Under the pieces are notes generated by a model, which ran no database searches, was not told where the DNA came from, and saw nothing but the letters and a program-made list of their open reading frames with translations. Shown in pieces: positions 48,275-62,212 of a stretch of 64,000 nt of DNA; the first letter of the stretch is position 1, and every line of letters begins with the position of its first letter. Made by a program: the position numbers and the translations under genes. The stretch is from Lacimicrobium alkaliphilum (GTDB taxonomy: Bacteria; Pseudomonadota; Gammaproteobacteria; Enterobacterales; Alteromonadaceae). The DNA is taken from assembly GCF_002591895.1 (NCBI RefSeq), contig NZ_NISX01000004.1, forward strand, positions 62,001-126,000. The letters are read 5' to 3'.

Positions 48275-50278
48275 TTACGACAAGGCCACCAACTGCCGGC
48301 GTAAGGCTTCAACCTCATCCCTCAGCGCAGCCGCCTGTTCAAACTCCAGGTTTTTGGCATGTTCGAACATTTGGCCTTCAATACTACTGATCTTTTTCAT
48401 GATCTCATCCGGCGAGCGTAACCCATACTTTTGTTCTGACTCCGCCACTTTGCGTCGCTTGTTTGACACCCAACTTCCGCCGAGATCCATCACATCGGTG
48501 ACGGATTTTTTCAGACTGGTAGGGGTAATGCCATGTTCCAGATTATGGGCTATCTGTTTCTCACGACGTCGCTGGGTTTCATCTATTGCTCGCTGCATTG
48601 ATCCGGTGATCACATCGCCATAAAGAATCGCTTTACCGTTAAGGTTTCTTGCCGCTCTGCCCATAGTTTGTATCAGGGATCGTTCAGAGCGTAAGAAGCC
48701 TTCTTTGTCCGCGTCCAGAATAGCTACCAGAGACACTTCCGGCATATCCAGGCCTTCCCGAAGCAGGTTAATACCTACCAGTACATCGAATTTCCCCAGC
48801 CGCAAATCACGTATAATCTCCATCCGCTCCACAGTGTCGATATCTGAGTGCAGATAGCGTACTTTGACGCCATGTTCGTCGAGGTAATCACTCAAATCCT
48901 CGGCCATACGCTTGGTTAATGTGGTGACCAGCACCCGTTCATCGACATTACTGCGCAGTTTGATTTCGGAAAGTAAGTCGTCTACCTGAGTGGCCACCGG
49001 CCTGACTTCAATTTCCGGATCGATCAAGCCTGTGGGCCGCACCACCTGCTCCACGATATCACCATTGGATTTTTCCAGTTCGTAATTGCCGGGCGTTGCC
49101 GACACATAGATTGTCTGCGGTGAAAGTGTCTCAAACTCATCGAATTTAAGAGGCCTGTTATCCAGTGCAGACGGCAGCCGGAAACCATATTCAACCAACG
49201 TCTCCTTGCGCGAGCGATCGCCTTTATACATTGCCCCAATTTGCGAGACCGTCACATGGGACTCATCAATGAACATCAGGCCATCGGCAGGAAAGTAATC
49301 GATCAGGGTCGGAGGGGGCTCGCCGGGATCTCTGCCGGACAAATAACGGGAATAGTTTTCTATTCCCGAGCAATACCCCAGTTCCAGCATCATCTCAATA
49401 TCAAACTGACAGCGCTGACTGATACGCTGCTCTTCGATAAGCTTATTCACTGATTTCAGCTGCTCACGGCGATCTGCCAGTTCAACCTTTATTCTCTCTA
49501 TGGCATCGAGAATTTTCTCTCTGGGTGTCACATAGTGAGTTTTGGGGAATACCGTGGCTCTCACCACGGAGCGCTCAACTGCGCCAGTGAGGGGATCGAA
49601 CAGACTGATTTTTTCAATCTCCTCGTCAAACAATTCTACCCGGATACCTTCACGCTCAGAATCGGCGGGAAAGATATCGATCACATCACCACGAACCCTG
49701 AACGTCCCCCGCTCAAAATTCACATCATTGCGGGTATACTGCAACTCTGCCAGACGGCGCAGGATATCCCGCTGATCCATCAGATCGCCCTGGCGCAAAT
49801 GCAGCAACATCTTCATGTACGATTCCGGATCACCCAGACCATAAATAGCTGAAACACTGGATACGATCACTACATCGCGTCGCTCCATCAGCGCTTTAGT
49901 CGCCGAGAGTCGCATTTGCTCTATATGATCATTAATAGAAGCATCTTTCTCGATAAAGGTATCGGTTGTAGGCACATAAGCTTCTGGCTGGTAATAGTCA
50001 TAGTAGGAGACAAAATATTCCACCGCGTTATTGGGGAAAAACTCTTTCATCTCTCCATACAGCTGTGCAGCCAATGTTTTGTTATGGGCCAGGATCAGTG
50101 TTGGGCGTTGCACTTCATTGATAACACTGGCCATGGTGAAGGTCTTACCAGAACCTGTTACTCCGAGCAATGTCTGGCTCGCCAGGCCGTCATTCAACCC
50201 CTCAACCAGTGCCTCGATGGCCCTGGGCTGATCGCCAGCCGGTTTATAGGATGATACCAGTTCAAATCCTCTGCTCAT
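48275..50278 (-). CDS. uvrB: Excinuclease ABC subunit B
   Basis: UvrB is the damage-verifying helicase-like subunit of nucleotide excision repair. From the ATG at 50278 it has 667 residues. Walker A is GVTGSGKT, the beta-hairpin region is [21 protein letters not shown], with helicase motifs to [12 protein letters not shown] and a C-terminal UVR motif ([21 protein letters not shown]-like). The ATG overlaps the stop of the upstream MATE gene (ATGA) with AGGAAG in front; a longer frame to 50344 lies inside the MATE gene. I saw no LexA box (CTGT-N8-ACAG) upstream of either gene. Confidence 0.97.
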
Positions 50279-51654
50279 GAAGTCGCTTCCTGAACGTTTT
50301 GACAATGGAGTGTCTGTTCGTATTGTAATCGCCGCCGAAACCACAAAAAAGCCACACAGGCAGTGATAAGGTTGGCCAGCACACCAGCCCAGAACATACC
50401 GGCCAGGTCATACACCAGGCTGCCAAGATAAGAGACAGGCACAAAAAACACAAACAGACGCAATATACTCAGCCACAGAGCACTCATTGGCCGGTGCAAC
50501 GCATTAAACGAAGAGTTGGTCAGAATAATCACACCTTGCAGCCCATACCCGAGCGGTACGATCAGCAGAAAAAGCTGGATCAGTTCTGCCACTTTCTTTT
50601 CCTCGGCAAAGGCCATGGCAATATAGGGAGAGGCCAGCCATAACACCACAAATATTAAAAGTTGCCAGGCCAACACGAAACCGATGCACAGCATGTAGGC
50701 CTGGCGCACACGATGCACTTTACCGGCACCATAATTCTGGCTGATAAAGGGCGGCAAACTCATGGACAGGGCAAGAATCACAATGGATGCGATGGATTCC
50801 AGTCGATTTCCCACTCCCCAGGTGGCCACCGCCTCAGCACCATAGGTGGCCACAATCGCGGTAAGAATACCGTTAGCCAGAGGTGTGAGCATATTTGCGC
50901 CAGCGGCAGGCAACCCAATTCTGAGTATCTCGGTACTGGTCTGCCTGAACTCAGGCAGAGTTAACAGTCTGGGCAAAATCAACTGACGTTTATGCACCAG
51001 CAAATAAAGTATATAGATACAACCGCTGCCCCAGGCGATCATAGTGGCAATCGCCGCGCCCTGAATCCCCATTGCCGGAATCGGGCCAAAACCGAAAATC
51101 AACAACGGATCCAGAGCGGCATTGATGAGCCCTCCGGCGGCCATGATAATACTCGGTGTCTTAGTGTCACCGGCAGCACGCAGCACTGAGTTACCCACCA
51201 TGGGAAAGGCCAGAAACACTCCGGCAAGGTACCAGATATGCATATAATCTTTTATATGCTCCATCTGTGTGTTGCTGGCACCCATCAAATTAAACACAGG
51301 CTCAATGGTCAGAAACCCTATCAATGCCAGACTGCCTACTAATAGCAACGACAACATCAGTGCGCCGGTACCAAACTCTCTGGCCAGATGAGACTTTCCC
51401 GCGCCCAGATAGCGGGCTATCGTTGCCGATGTGCCAATTCCCAGGCCAATATTCAGGCTGATCAAAGTAAAAGTAACGGGAAACGTAAAACTGATAGCCG
51501 CAAGTTCCTCTGTACCCAACAGACTGACAAAAAACGTGTCTACCAGACCAAAGGTCATCAGCATGATCATGCCCAGAATCATCGGCACAGTCATACGGCG
51601 CAACGTGCCGGGAATAGAGCTGTTCAACAGGTCTGGTTTATTGGTCTGGGTCAC
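50275..51654 (-). CDS. MATE family efflux transporter
   Basis: The 459-residue protein has about twelve membrane helices in two repeated halves, typical of MATE exporters that use sodium or proton gradients to remove cationic drugs: [31 protein letters not shown] at the start, [22 protein letters not shown], and in the second half [29 protein letters not shown]. It ends by overlapping the uvrB start by four bases, so the two are translationally coupled. Confidence 0.94.
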
Positions 51655-52424
51655 TGGGTCACTCTTGAGATTAACGGAGGAGCGATATGATAGGTGACTG
51701 CAGATAAGAAAACCATGGCTGATCGACCGACGGGTTAATCAGAGTGTTACAGATAGTTACTCCTCCCTGCCACAAAACACCAGGTTCAGCGGATTAAAAA
51801 GCTGATATACAGGAATTTTTATCCATAGGCAGAACAAATAACTAACAAGTCAATGGAATAATCGAACAGTTGTTGAGCGATTTATTCAGCCACAAGGAGA
51901 AACGCTTGTATATATTTGTTTTAATTGGCTTTTTATTTATTTCTTCCTATTCTGATAAATGACTATTGACAGCAACAAGATAAGTGCTTCCACTTTATTG
52001 AGAGTTTCATCAACATAGTTATCCACAGATTTAGTGGATAACTTCTTACTCGCCAATGATTGTGCCTGTTGTGCCTGAATGTGGACAAAATTTTGTAAGT
52101 CAGCACTAACCTTATGTGCCGGATAGCAATGTTACGTTTTTGTTAAAGGCTGTTTATCCATACAGATGACAAGCAGATTATAATATCAAAATAGAATAAC
52201 TATCGTTGTTGATATACGCATCTAAAGAGTGACCTGTTTCCACTTTCTGACCTGCTTATCATCGCCAATTTCCACATTATTGGTCAGCAAACAGACAGAA
52301 AAGCATAAAGGGATAAAAATAATCGCATCCGCTGTTGACAGTAACAGATGGCCTCATTAATATTCGCCTCCGTTGAAAACAGCGCCAAATGTATTTGTTG
52401 TTTCTTTTCAGCGTGAATTTCTGC
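51655..52424. other. 770 bp gene-free stretch with DnaA-box-like cluster
   Basis: No coding frame with a family match was seen. The first part carries the MATE-uvrB promoter. Five DnaA-box-like 9-mers occur between 51819 and 52162. An AT-rich tract lies at about 51905-51960. The last 100 bp should contain the promoter of the tRNA-Asn array, which I could not pin down. Confidence 0.6.
51819..52162. promoter_or_regulatory. Cluster of five DnaA-box-like sites
   Basis: TTATCCATA at 51819-51827; TTATCCACA (perfect consensus) at 52019-52027; TTATCCACT on the minus strand at 52033-52041; TTGTCCACA on the minus strand at 52080-52088; TTATCCATA at 52154-52162. The second and third are part of a perfect 10 bp inverted repeat AGTTATCCAC / GTGGATAACT. 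No dnaA, dnaN or mnmG gene is near, so this is not evidently oriC. Confidence 0.5.
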
Positions 52425-52501
52425 TCCCCCTTAGCTCAGTTGGTTAGAGCGACGGACTGTTAATCCGCAGGTCCCCCGTTCGAGTCGGGGAGGGGGAGCC
52501 A
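52425..52501 (+). tRNA. tRNA-Asn (GTT), copy 1
   Basis: Cloverleaf with acceptor TCCCCCT/AGGGGGA, D-arm AGCTCAGTTGGTTAGAGC, anticodon GTT in CTGTTAA, T-arm CCGTTCGAGTCGG, discriminator G and encoded CCA; 77 nt. Confidence 0.97.
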
Positions 52502-52526
52502 AATTCCTTCCACTACACATTACGAT

Positions 52527-52603
52527 TCCCCCTTAGCTCAGTTGGTTAGAGCGACGGACTGTTAATCCGCAGGTCCCCCGTTCGAGTCGGGGAGGGGGAG
52601 CCA
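52527..52603 (+). tRNA. tRNA-Asn (GTT), copy 2
   Basis: Identical to copy 1 over all 77 nt. It starts exactly 102 bp after it, and the spacer is also repeated. Confidence 0.97.
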
Positions 52604-52628
52604 AATTCCTTCCACTACACATTACGAT

Positions 52629-52705
52629 TCCCCCTTAGCTCAGTTGGTTAGAGCGACGGACTGTTAATCCGCAGGTCCCCCGTTCGAGTCGGGGAGGGGG
52701 AGCCA
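52629..52705 (+). tRNA. tRNA-Asn (GTT), copy 3
   Basis: Identical to copies 1 and 2 and again offset by 102 bp. The array reads in the same direction as rnfABCDGE, which begins 158 bp downstream. Confidence 0.97.
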
Positions 52706-61576: not shown

Positions 61577-62212
61577 ATGACAGCGCCACATACACAACTC
61601 AAGCACAGATTCAGAGGTTATTTTCCGGTCGTTATTGATGTAGAAACCGCGGGCTTTAACCCTCGCACAGATGCCTTACTGGAGATCGCTGCGGTAACAC
61701 TAAAAATGGACGACCAGGGCTTACTGCAAAAAGATCAGACCTTTCATCATCATATTCATCCTTTTGAAGGTGCGAATCTTGAGAAAGCGGCACTGGAATT
61801 TAATGGTATCGATCCTGACTGTGCGTTGCGTGGGGCCATCGAAGAAACCGATGCAATGAAAGACCTGTGTAAACAGATCCGCAAGCAACAAAAGCAGGCG
61901 GACTGTCAGCGCTCAGTCATCGTGGCGCATAACGCCGCCTTTGATCAGAGTTTTGTTAATGCCGCCATCGAGCGCTGCGCTATCAAACGCACCCCCTTCC
62001 ATCCTTTTGTTTCGTTTGACACCACCAGCCTTGCGGCTCTGGCTCTGGGACAAACCGTACTGGTAAAAGCCTGTCAGGCAGCAGCGATTCCTTTTGATCA
62101 GAATGAAGCCCACTCGGCCCTGTATGACGCCTCAAAAACTGCGGATCTGTTTTGCATGATCGTCAATCGCTGGCAACAACTGGGGGGCTGGCCGCTCTCA
62201 GACCCGGCCTGA
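61577..62212 (+). CDS. rnt: Ribonuclease T
   Basis: RNase T trims 3' ends of tRNAs and other stable RNAs. The 211-residue DEDDh exonuclease shows [22 protein letters not shown] (D and E), [12 protein letters not shown] (D) and [11 protein letters not shown] (H and D). Its stop is followed directly by the trmO ATG. Confidence 0.97.

Follow-up and report, generated by a model that had tools for sequence, protein, structure and literature searches.

The DARS elements of Escherichia coli are built on a core of three DnaA boxes, I–III, in which box I faces opposite to boxes II and III and the spacing is identical at DARS1 and DARS2; head-to-head contact between DnaA molecules on this core frees ADP (excerpts of PMC5742627, PMC10380432 and PMC8682772). 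Chromatin immunoprecipitation has placed DnaA at the double box cTAATACACAtggTTATCCACAg of E. coli DARS1 (excerpt of PMC11317965), and the DnaA residues R227, D269, R285, L290, R334, R399 and T435 have been tied to DARS function (excerpts of PMC4245941 and PMC5742627). DARS1- and DARS2-like sequences are found in many proteobacteria (excerpt of PMC10380432). Since such sites have been reported so widely, what is new in the locus described here is its layout, not its core.

LexA as well as DnaA acts as a repressor of uvrB in E. coli. DARS1 overlaps the promoter uvrBp3, the order being DARS1, then the LexA box, then uvrB, and interference between LexA or RNA polymerase and DARS1 has been suggested (excerpts of PMC6015884). 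Read-through transcription controls datA (excerpt of PMC10950094). Our search of the open literature, to which the two primary DARS1 papers do not belong, yielded no description of DARS1 in Alteromonadaceae, of a LexA promoter upstream of DARS1 or of a DARS core at the dapE locus.

The locus and its DnaA boxes

The window, by which we mean the whole 64-kb stretch of DNA analysed, comprises positions 62001–126000 of contig C34 in a genome of 4.30 Mb and 51 contigs. The original prediction had pointed to five DnaA-box-like sites between 51819 and 52162 and proposed a site that titrates or regulates DnaA, by analogy with datA. The sites and their surroundings are as follows (strand in brackets).

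48275–50344 (−): uvrB, an open frame with Pfam UvrB domains, whose homologous part begins near 50275 and abuts the MATE stop
50275–51654 (−): MATE-family transporter gene (Pfam MatE), between the DnaA-box site and uvrB
51655–52424: gene-free stretch between the MATE gene and the tRNA-Asn array
51819–51827 (+): TTATCCATA, first of the five boxes originally listed
52007–52015 (+): DnaA box III, TCATCAACA, weak, with two mismatches; a double box with box II, 3 bp apart
52019–52027 (+): DnaA box II, TTATCCACA, perfect consensus
52033–52041 (−): DnaA box I, TTATCCACT, opposite to II and III, 14 bp from the start of box II
52080–52088 (−): accessory DnaA-like box, TTGTCCACA, 61 bp from box II
52095–52110 (−): palindrome GTTAGTGCTGACTTAC, GTTAGT-N4-ACTTAC, between the LexA box and the core
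52142–52172 (−): probable SOS promoter of the MATE–uvrB unit (−35 TTGTCA, LexA box, −10-like TTTAAC)
52150–52165 (−): LexA operator, CTGTATGGATAAACAG in its minus-strand reading, CTGT-N8-ACAG; contains the 'DnaA box' of 52154
52425–52705 (+): three identical tRNA-Asn(GTT) genes, adjoining the DnaA-box site

All five sites are found where they had been placed: TTATCCATA at 51819 (+), TTATCCACA at 52019 (+), TTATCCACT at 52033 (−), TTGTCCACA at 52080 (−) and TTATCCATA again at 52154 (+). The perfect box does lie within a 10-bp inverted repeat (AGTTATCCAC at 52017–52026, GTGGATAACT at 52034–52043). The cluster is the densest of the window, with five sites of at most one mismatch in 344 bp, whereas any other stretch of that length in the 64 kb has two at most. 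For the 770-bp gap, 0.55 sites are expected under a first-order Markov model. The genome-wide count that had been proposed as a check comes to 1591 sites with at most one mismatch to TTATCCACA over 4.30 Mb, or about 0.13 per 344 bp.

Do the five boxes form one unit? The cluster is real, but the part of it that is conserved consists of three boxes, one of which, box III, the original prediction had missed. The box at 51819 is absent from both same-genus relatives and is, to judge from that comparison, probably not part of the element. The 'box' at 52154 is kept within the genus but lies inside CTGTTTATCCATACAG, a LexA operator. Both are probably incidental. The accessory box at 52080 is kept in the same-genus loci and in G016, is degenerate in G007 and is lost further out.

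It had also been remarked, correctly, that no replication genes lie nearby; the telling neighbour is uvrB, two genes away. On the other side the tRNA-Asn genes start about 400 bp past the core and are directed away from it, with Rnf-type genes beginning beyond the array. Searched at gathering thresholds, Rfam gives only the three tRNAs, and an RNA element was rejected. A mobile or plasmid origin was rejected as well; none of 77 plasmid records covers most of the query, and among the matches listed only the tRNA part is covered.

A core with the geometry of DARS1

The three-box core is laid out exactly as E. coli DARS1 is: its boxes stand in the same order, face the same ways and are 14 and 12 bp apart. 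In K-12 MG1655, DARS1 reads TTATCCACT (+), TTATCCACA (−), TAATACACA (−), the first two boxes starting 14 bp apart and the last two 12 bp; on its reverse strand the window has TTATCCACT, TTATCCACA, TCATCAACA at identical intervals, likewise oriented with respect to uvrB. Scored against a 23-position core pattern, the site reaches 23/23 and the next best place in the 64-kb window 17. The best scores in 20 shuffled 64-kb sequences were 14–17 (one strand, at positions where one of two triplets matched). The site is also the sole exact box I/II pair in the whole genome. That the site is a chromosomal regulator of DnaA is very probable, and we hold with considerable confidence that it would prove to be the Alteromonadaceae counterpart of E. 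coli DARS1. The earlier guess of a regulatory site thus stands, while the type matches DARS1 and not datA.

In the complete same-genus genome G002, the distance between dnaA and the site is 0.309 of the chromosome, compared with 0.339 in E. coli. Over the 11 complete relatives measured (the window's own genome is in 51 contigs) this distance ranges from 0.309 to 0.464, so the chromosomal position is only loosely kept.

How might such a site act? ADP-DnaA would bind boxes II and I head-to-head, with box III assisting or stimulating the pairing, and contact between the two AAA+ domains would loosen the ADP. The apo-DnaA would then leave and take up ATP, so that more initiation-competent ATP-DnaA might become available. 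DnaA bound to these boxes probably also represses the MATE–uvrB unit or acts on it as a roadblock. The DnaA of this genome is identical to that of E. coli at 366 of 462 aligned residues; it keeps R227, D269, R281, R285, L290, R334, R399 and T435, and has Q in place of E21.

Conservation among relatives

The original prediction had named conservation in close relatives as its own test, and the three-box core withstands it. Sequences preceding the MATE gene in 30 genomes were stacked, gap-free, on box II. Among the 26 of 30 loci that could be stacked, conservation is confined to a stretch from about −12 to +24, and the flanks carry close to 0 bits; because the anchor was picked by the box I/II pattern, conservation at the positions of that pattern is partly a product of the choice of anchor. 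Box III and the surrounding bases are free of that choice. The ACA of box III, which played no part in choosing the anchor, is kept in 26, 26 and 25 of the 26 loci, counts that are not independent, the loci being related by descent. Four loci (L020, L026, L028 and L030) were without an anchor; L020 and L028 score 19 and 20 of 23 on the core pattern, and G030, the genome of L030, has a core 3.1 kb upstream of uvrB.

Does the association with uvrB extend further? Among 59 genomes, 58 of them relatives and one that of the window itself, 47 have a box I/II pair with at most one mismatch, and 2 of the 59 match the reversed-pattern control. uvrB could be located in 57 of the 59, and by the strict pattern the pair lies at most 6 kb upstream of it in 40, in the expected orientation in 38. 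Two of the 40 (G019 and G041) have near-palindromic pairs that match on both strands. Seven of the remaining 17 have a weaker or unlisted core scoring 19–22/23 (G003, G009, G010, G034, G039, G044 and G054). Eight have no core upstream of uvrB that reaches 19/23 (G028, G031, G036, G037, G040, G047, G055 and G056); G046 and G050 hold too little sequence upstream of uvrB. By family, 33 of the 35 genomes from the window's own have the core upstream of uvrB, the exceptions being G028 and G031, as do 14 of 20 testable genomes of other families, with six exceptions, a tally that leaves out G046, G050, G052 and G057. DARS1 and uvrB are paired far outside the enteric bacteria, and it is the three-box core that selection has kept.

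The immediate neighbours are more variable. In the window's family a MATE gene separates core and uvrB, as it does in three genomes from other families (G048, G049 and G053); families with the core directly before uvrB are without it. The distance from core to MATE gene varies from 294 to 808 bp among family loci with a core, and in several other families the core lies 283–848 bp directly upstream of uvrB. tRNA-Asn adjoins the site in 26 of 30 Alteromonadaceae loci and in 11 of 18 further loci scanned. The tRNA array is thus an old neighbour and no evidence for datA.

A LexA operator upstream of the core

Close copies of CTGTATGGATAAACAG stand upstream of the genome's own lexA (CTGTATGGAAAAACAG) and recA (CTGTATGGTTATACAG). 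Is the operator a regular companion of the core? Among 57 MATE loci, 55 have a core score of at least 19; leaving aside five duplicates, the two without a core and L084, which is too near a contig end, spacing could be compared in 49. A CTGTN8ACAG with at most one mismatch ends 106–109 bp upstream of the core in 34 of the 49, and at 99 bp in L018. The same motif occurs in 70 of 4207 control windows, which overlap one another. The 15 loci without a LexA box at 106–109 bp (L007, L008, L017–L025, L027–L029 and L072) belong mostly to more distant genera, and 12 loci of other families and E. coli, scanned in the same way, have none at that distance.

Aligned on the LexA box, 36 loci read TTGA..aCTGTN8ACAGTgtTTAA.AAAa.TGtAAC on the MATE strand. 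We read this consensus as a probable SOS promoter pointing through the DARS1 core to MATE–uvrB; the −35/−10 spacer is long, at 19 bp, so its direction is one that we infer. Given this distance between LexA box and core (106–109 bp), transcription from the likely SOS promoter of the MATE–uvrB unit would run across DARS1. By lying just downstream of an SOS switch, the core may couple DNA repair to when the chromosome is copied.

Between operator and core, 36 of the 49 loci carry the palindrome on the MATE strand, with at most three mismatches and at 68–70 bp upstream of the core. Its exact form is present at only two places in the genome (reversed control, 0), the other copy overlapping the end of an unrelated small open frame. 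Its half-site resembles GTGAGT, the half-site of SlmA. SlmA halves abut, however, and here they are 4 bp apart, so we do not assign the palindrome to SlmA.

Two further candidates were discarded. The motif CTGTTGACAGTAACAG at 52332–52347, also CTGTN8ACAG, was rejected as a LexA site: a likely tRNA-Asn −35, TTGACA at 52335–52340, overlaps it, and by eye a TAATAT (52358–52363) follows 17 bp on, as in a likely tRNA-Asn promoter. Among the 57 loci this motif recurs only within the genus (L001–L003 and L064, a duplicate of L003). A small reading frame through the leader was dropped on inspection by eye, because the spacings (106–109) do not differ by multiples of three and the residues show no conservation.

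Other DnaA-box loci of the genome

A second DARS-type three-box core, ATATCCACACTATCTGTGGATAACCTTGTTAAGTA, scoring 21/23, is present outside the window (G000 C1:191276; 1501–1535 of L035). It sits between PTS IIA-like and patatin-like genes, so named by eye, near dapE. Second cores of 14 relatives all score at least 21/23 and all lie beside homologues of dapE and yffB, 12 of them also beside a patatin-like gene and 10 beside a IIA-like gene; the 14 were chosen for having a second core, so that these figures speak for a shared place, not for frequency. In four complete genomes the second core lies 0.44–0.48 of the chromosome from dnaA.

The rppH–mutH region, home of DARS2 in E. coli, holds no core here (L109, G000 C12). 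A dense cluster of DnaA boxes, three of them perfect, lies about 9 kb from dnaA (L094 13367–13596; G000 C5:43366–43595) and is probably oriC. For the window's own site an origin was rejected: dnaA and this separate cluster are on contig C5, and the window is on C34.

Alternative explanations

What else might the boxes be? A chance cluster of degenerate boxes in AT-rich DNA would agree with the incidental nature of the boxes at 51819 and 52154. But none of 3000 simulated sequences of the first-order model reached five boxes, and the core is kept across the family between flanks that are random, which already refutes chance for the core; we give this explanation practically no credence. The reading originally offered, a datA-like site that titrates DnaA or promotes the hydrolysis of DnaA-bound ATP, has in its favour several DnaA boxes in a gene-free stretch with tRNA genes adjoining. 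The check for an IHF site between the boxes, suggested at the outset, used the consensus given in an excerpt of PMC4585315, with E. coli datA as positive control. It recovered the perfect site in E. coli datA, and in the window no site with one mismatch or none begins between 51861 and 52411, the nearest one-mismatch sites being at 51737, 51795 and 51860. With no IHF consensus among the core boxes, a defining feature of datA is absent. The layout of the boxes differs too. The surroundings of datA (orn, tRNA-Gly, queG) are not those of the site, and queG, its neighbour in E. coli, maps to a different contig and has no box cluster by it. Location, box layout and the lack of an IHF site all speak against datA, whereas box geometry and uvrB synteny fit DARS1; we consider a datA-like function very improbable.

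A more serious alternative is that the boxes serve solely to let DnaA switch the transcription of MATE–uvrB, and recharge no DnaA. The uvrB synteny and the LexA operator 108 bp upstream would suit it, as would E. coli, where DnaA and LexA repress uvrB at a promoter, uvrBp3, that DARS1 overlaps (excerpt of PMC6015884). However, a repressor site needs no exact three-box, 14/12, head-to-head geometry. This geometry is kept although the distance to the MATE gene varies by hundreds of base pairs and that gene separates core from uvrB, and a second core of the same geometry exists at an unrelated locus. We regard a mere switch as unlikely, and favour a DARS1 counterpart.

Could this DARS1 counterpart be gated by the SOS response? 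In one branch of Alteromonadaceae the LexA box, palindrome and core, in near-fixed arrangement, might form an SOS-gated module. The SOS promoter would fire through the core, so that damage would sweep DnaA off DARS1, stop recharging and delay replication while uvrB is made; DnaA on DARS1 would conversely roadblock the repair operon, and a basal level of recharging would come from the second core, at the dapE/patatin-like locus. We put this forward tentatively and consider it rather improbable. The placement of an SOS promoter on the other side of DARS1 offers a natural case for testing whether DNA damage and the recharging of DnaA are coupled.

Comparison with known systems

The closest relative is E. 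coli DARS1, in the bioD–uvrB intergenic region. AGTTATCCACT-N5-TGTGGATAAC is identical in both; both sites lie upstream of uvrB on the same strand, and the E. coli double box cTAATACACAtggTTATCCACAg is directly comparable with aTCATCAACAtagTTATCCACAg of the window, that is, TCATCAACA-tag-TTATCCACA. They differ in that the window has a MATE gene between site and uvrB, tRNA-Asn genes in place of bio genes on the other side, and a weaker box III. The LexA operator is upstream of the core in the window and downstream, between core and uvrB, in E. coli. The DARS1 of E. coli further has a stimulatory flank of about 50 bp.

DARS2 of E. coli, in the rppH–mutH region, shares the three-box design of the core. 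Unlike the site in the window, which lies elsewhere and has no IHF site among its core boxes, it is near mutH and needs IHF and Fis, neither of which DARS1 requires for promoting the release of ADP from ADP-DnaA. datA resembles the window in its cluster of DnaA boxes beside a run of identical tRNA genes, but follows tRNA-Gly genes, whereas the window has tRNA-Asn genes directed away from the core. The expected effects are opposite: datA causes DnaA to hydrolyse its ATP, and DARS1 recharges ADP-DnaA.

The uvrB promoter region of E. coli (uvrBp1–p3) is alike in that LexA and DnaA sites jointly control uvrB, and each region has a LexA box overlapped by a DnaA-like box (excerpts of PMC6015884). 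The order is reversed, however, and the LexA promoter of the window would read through DARS1.
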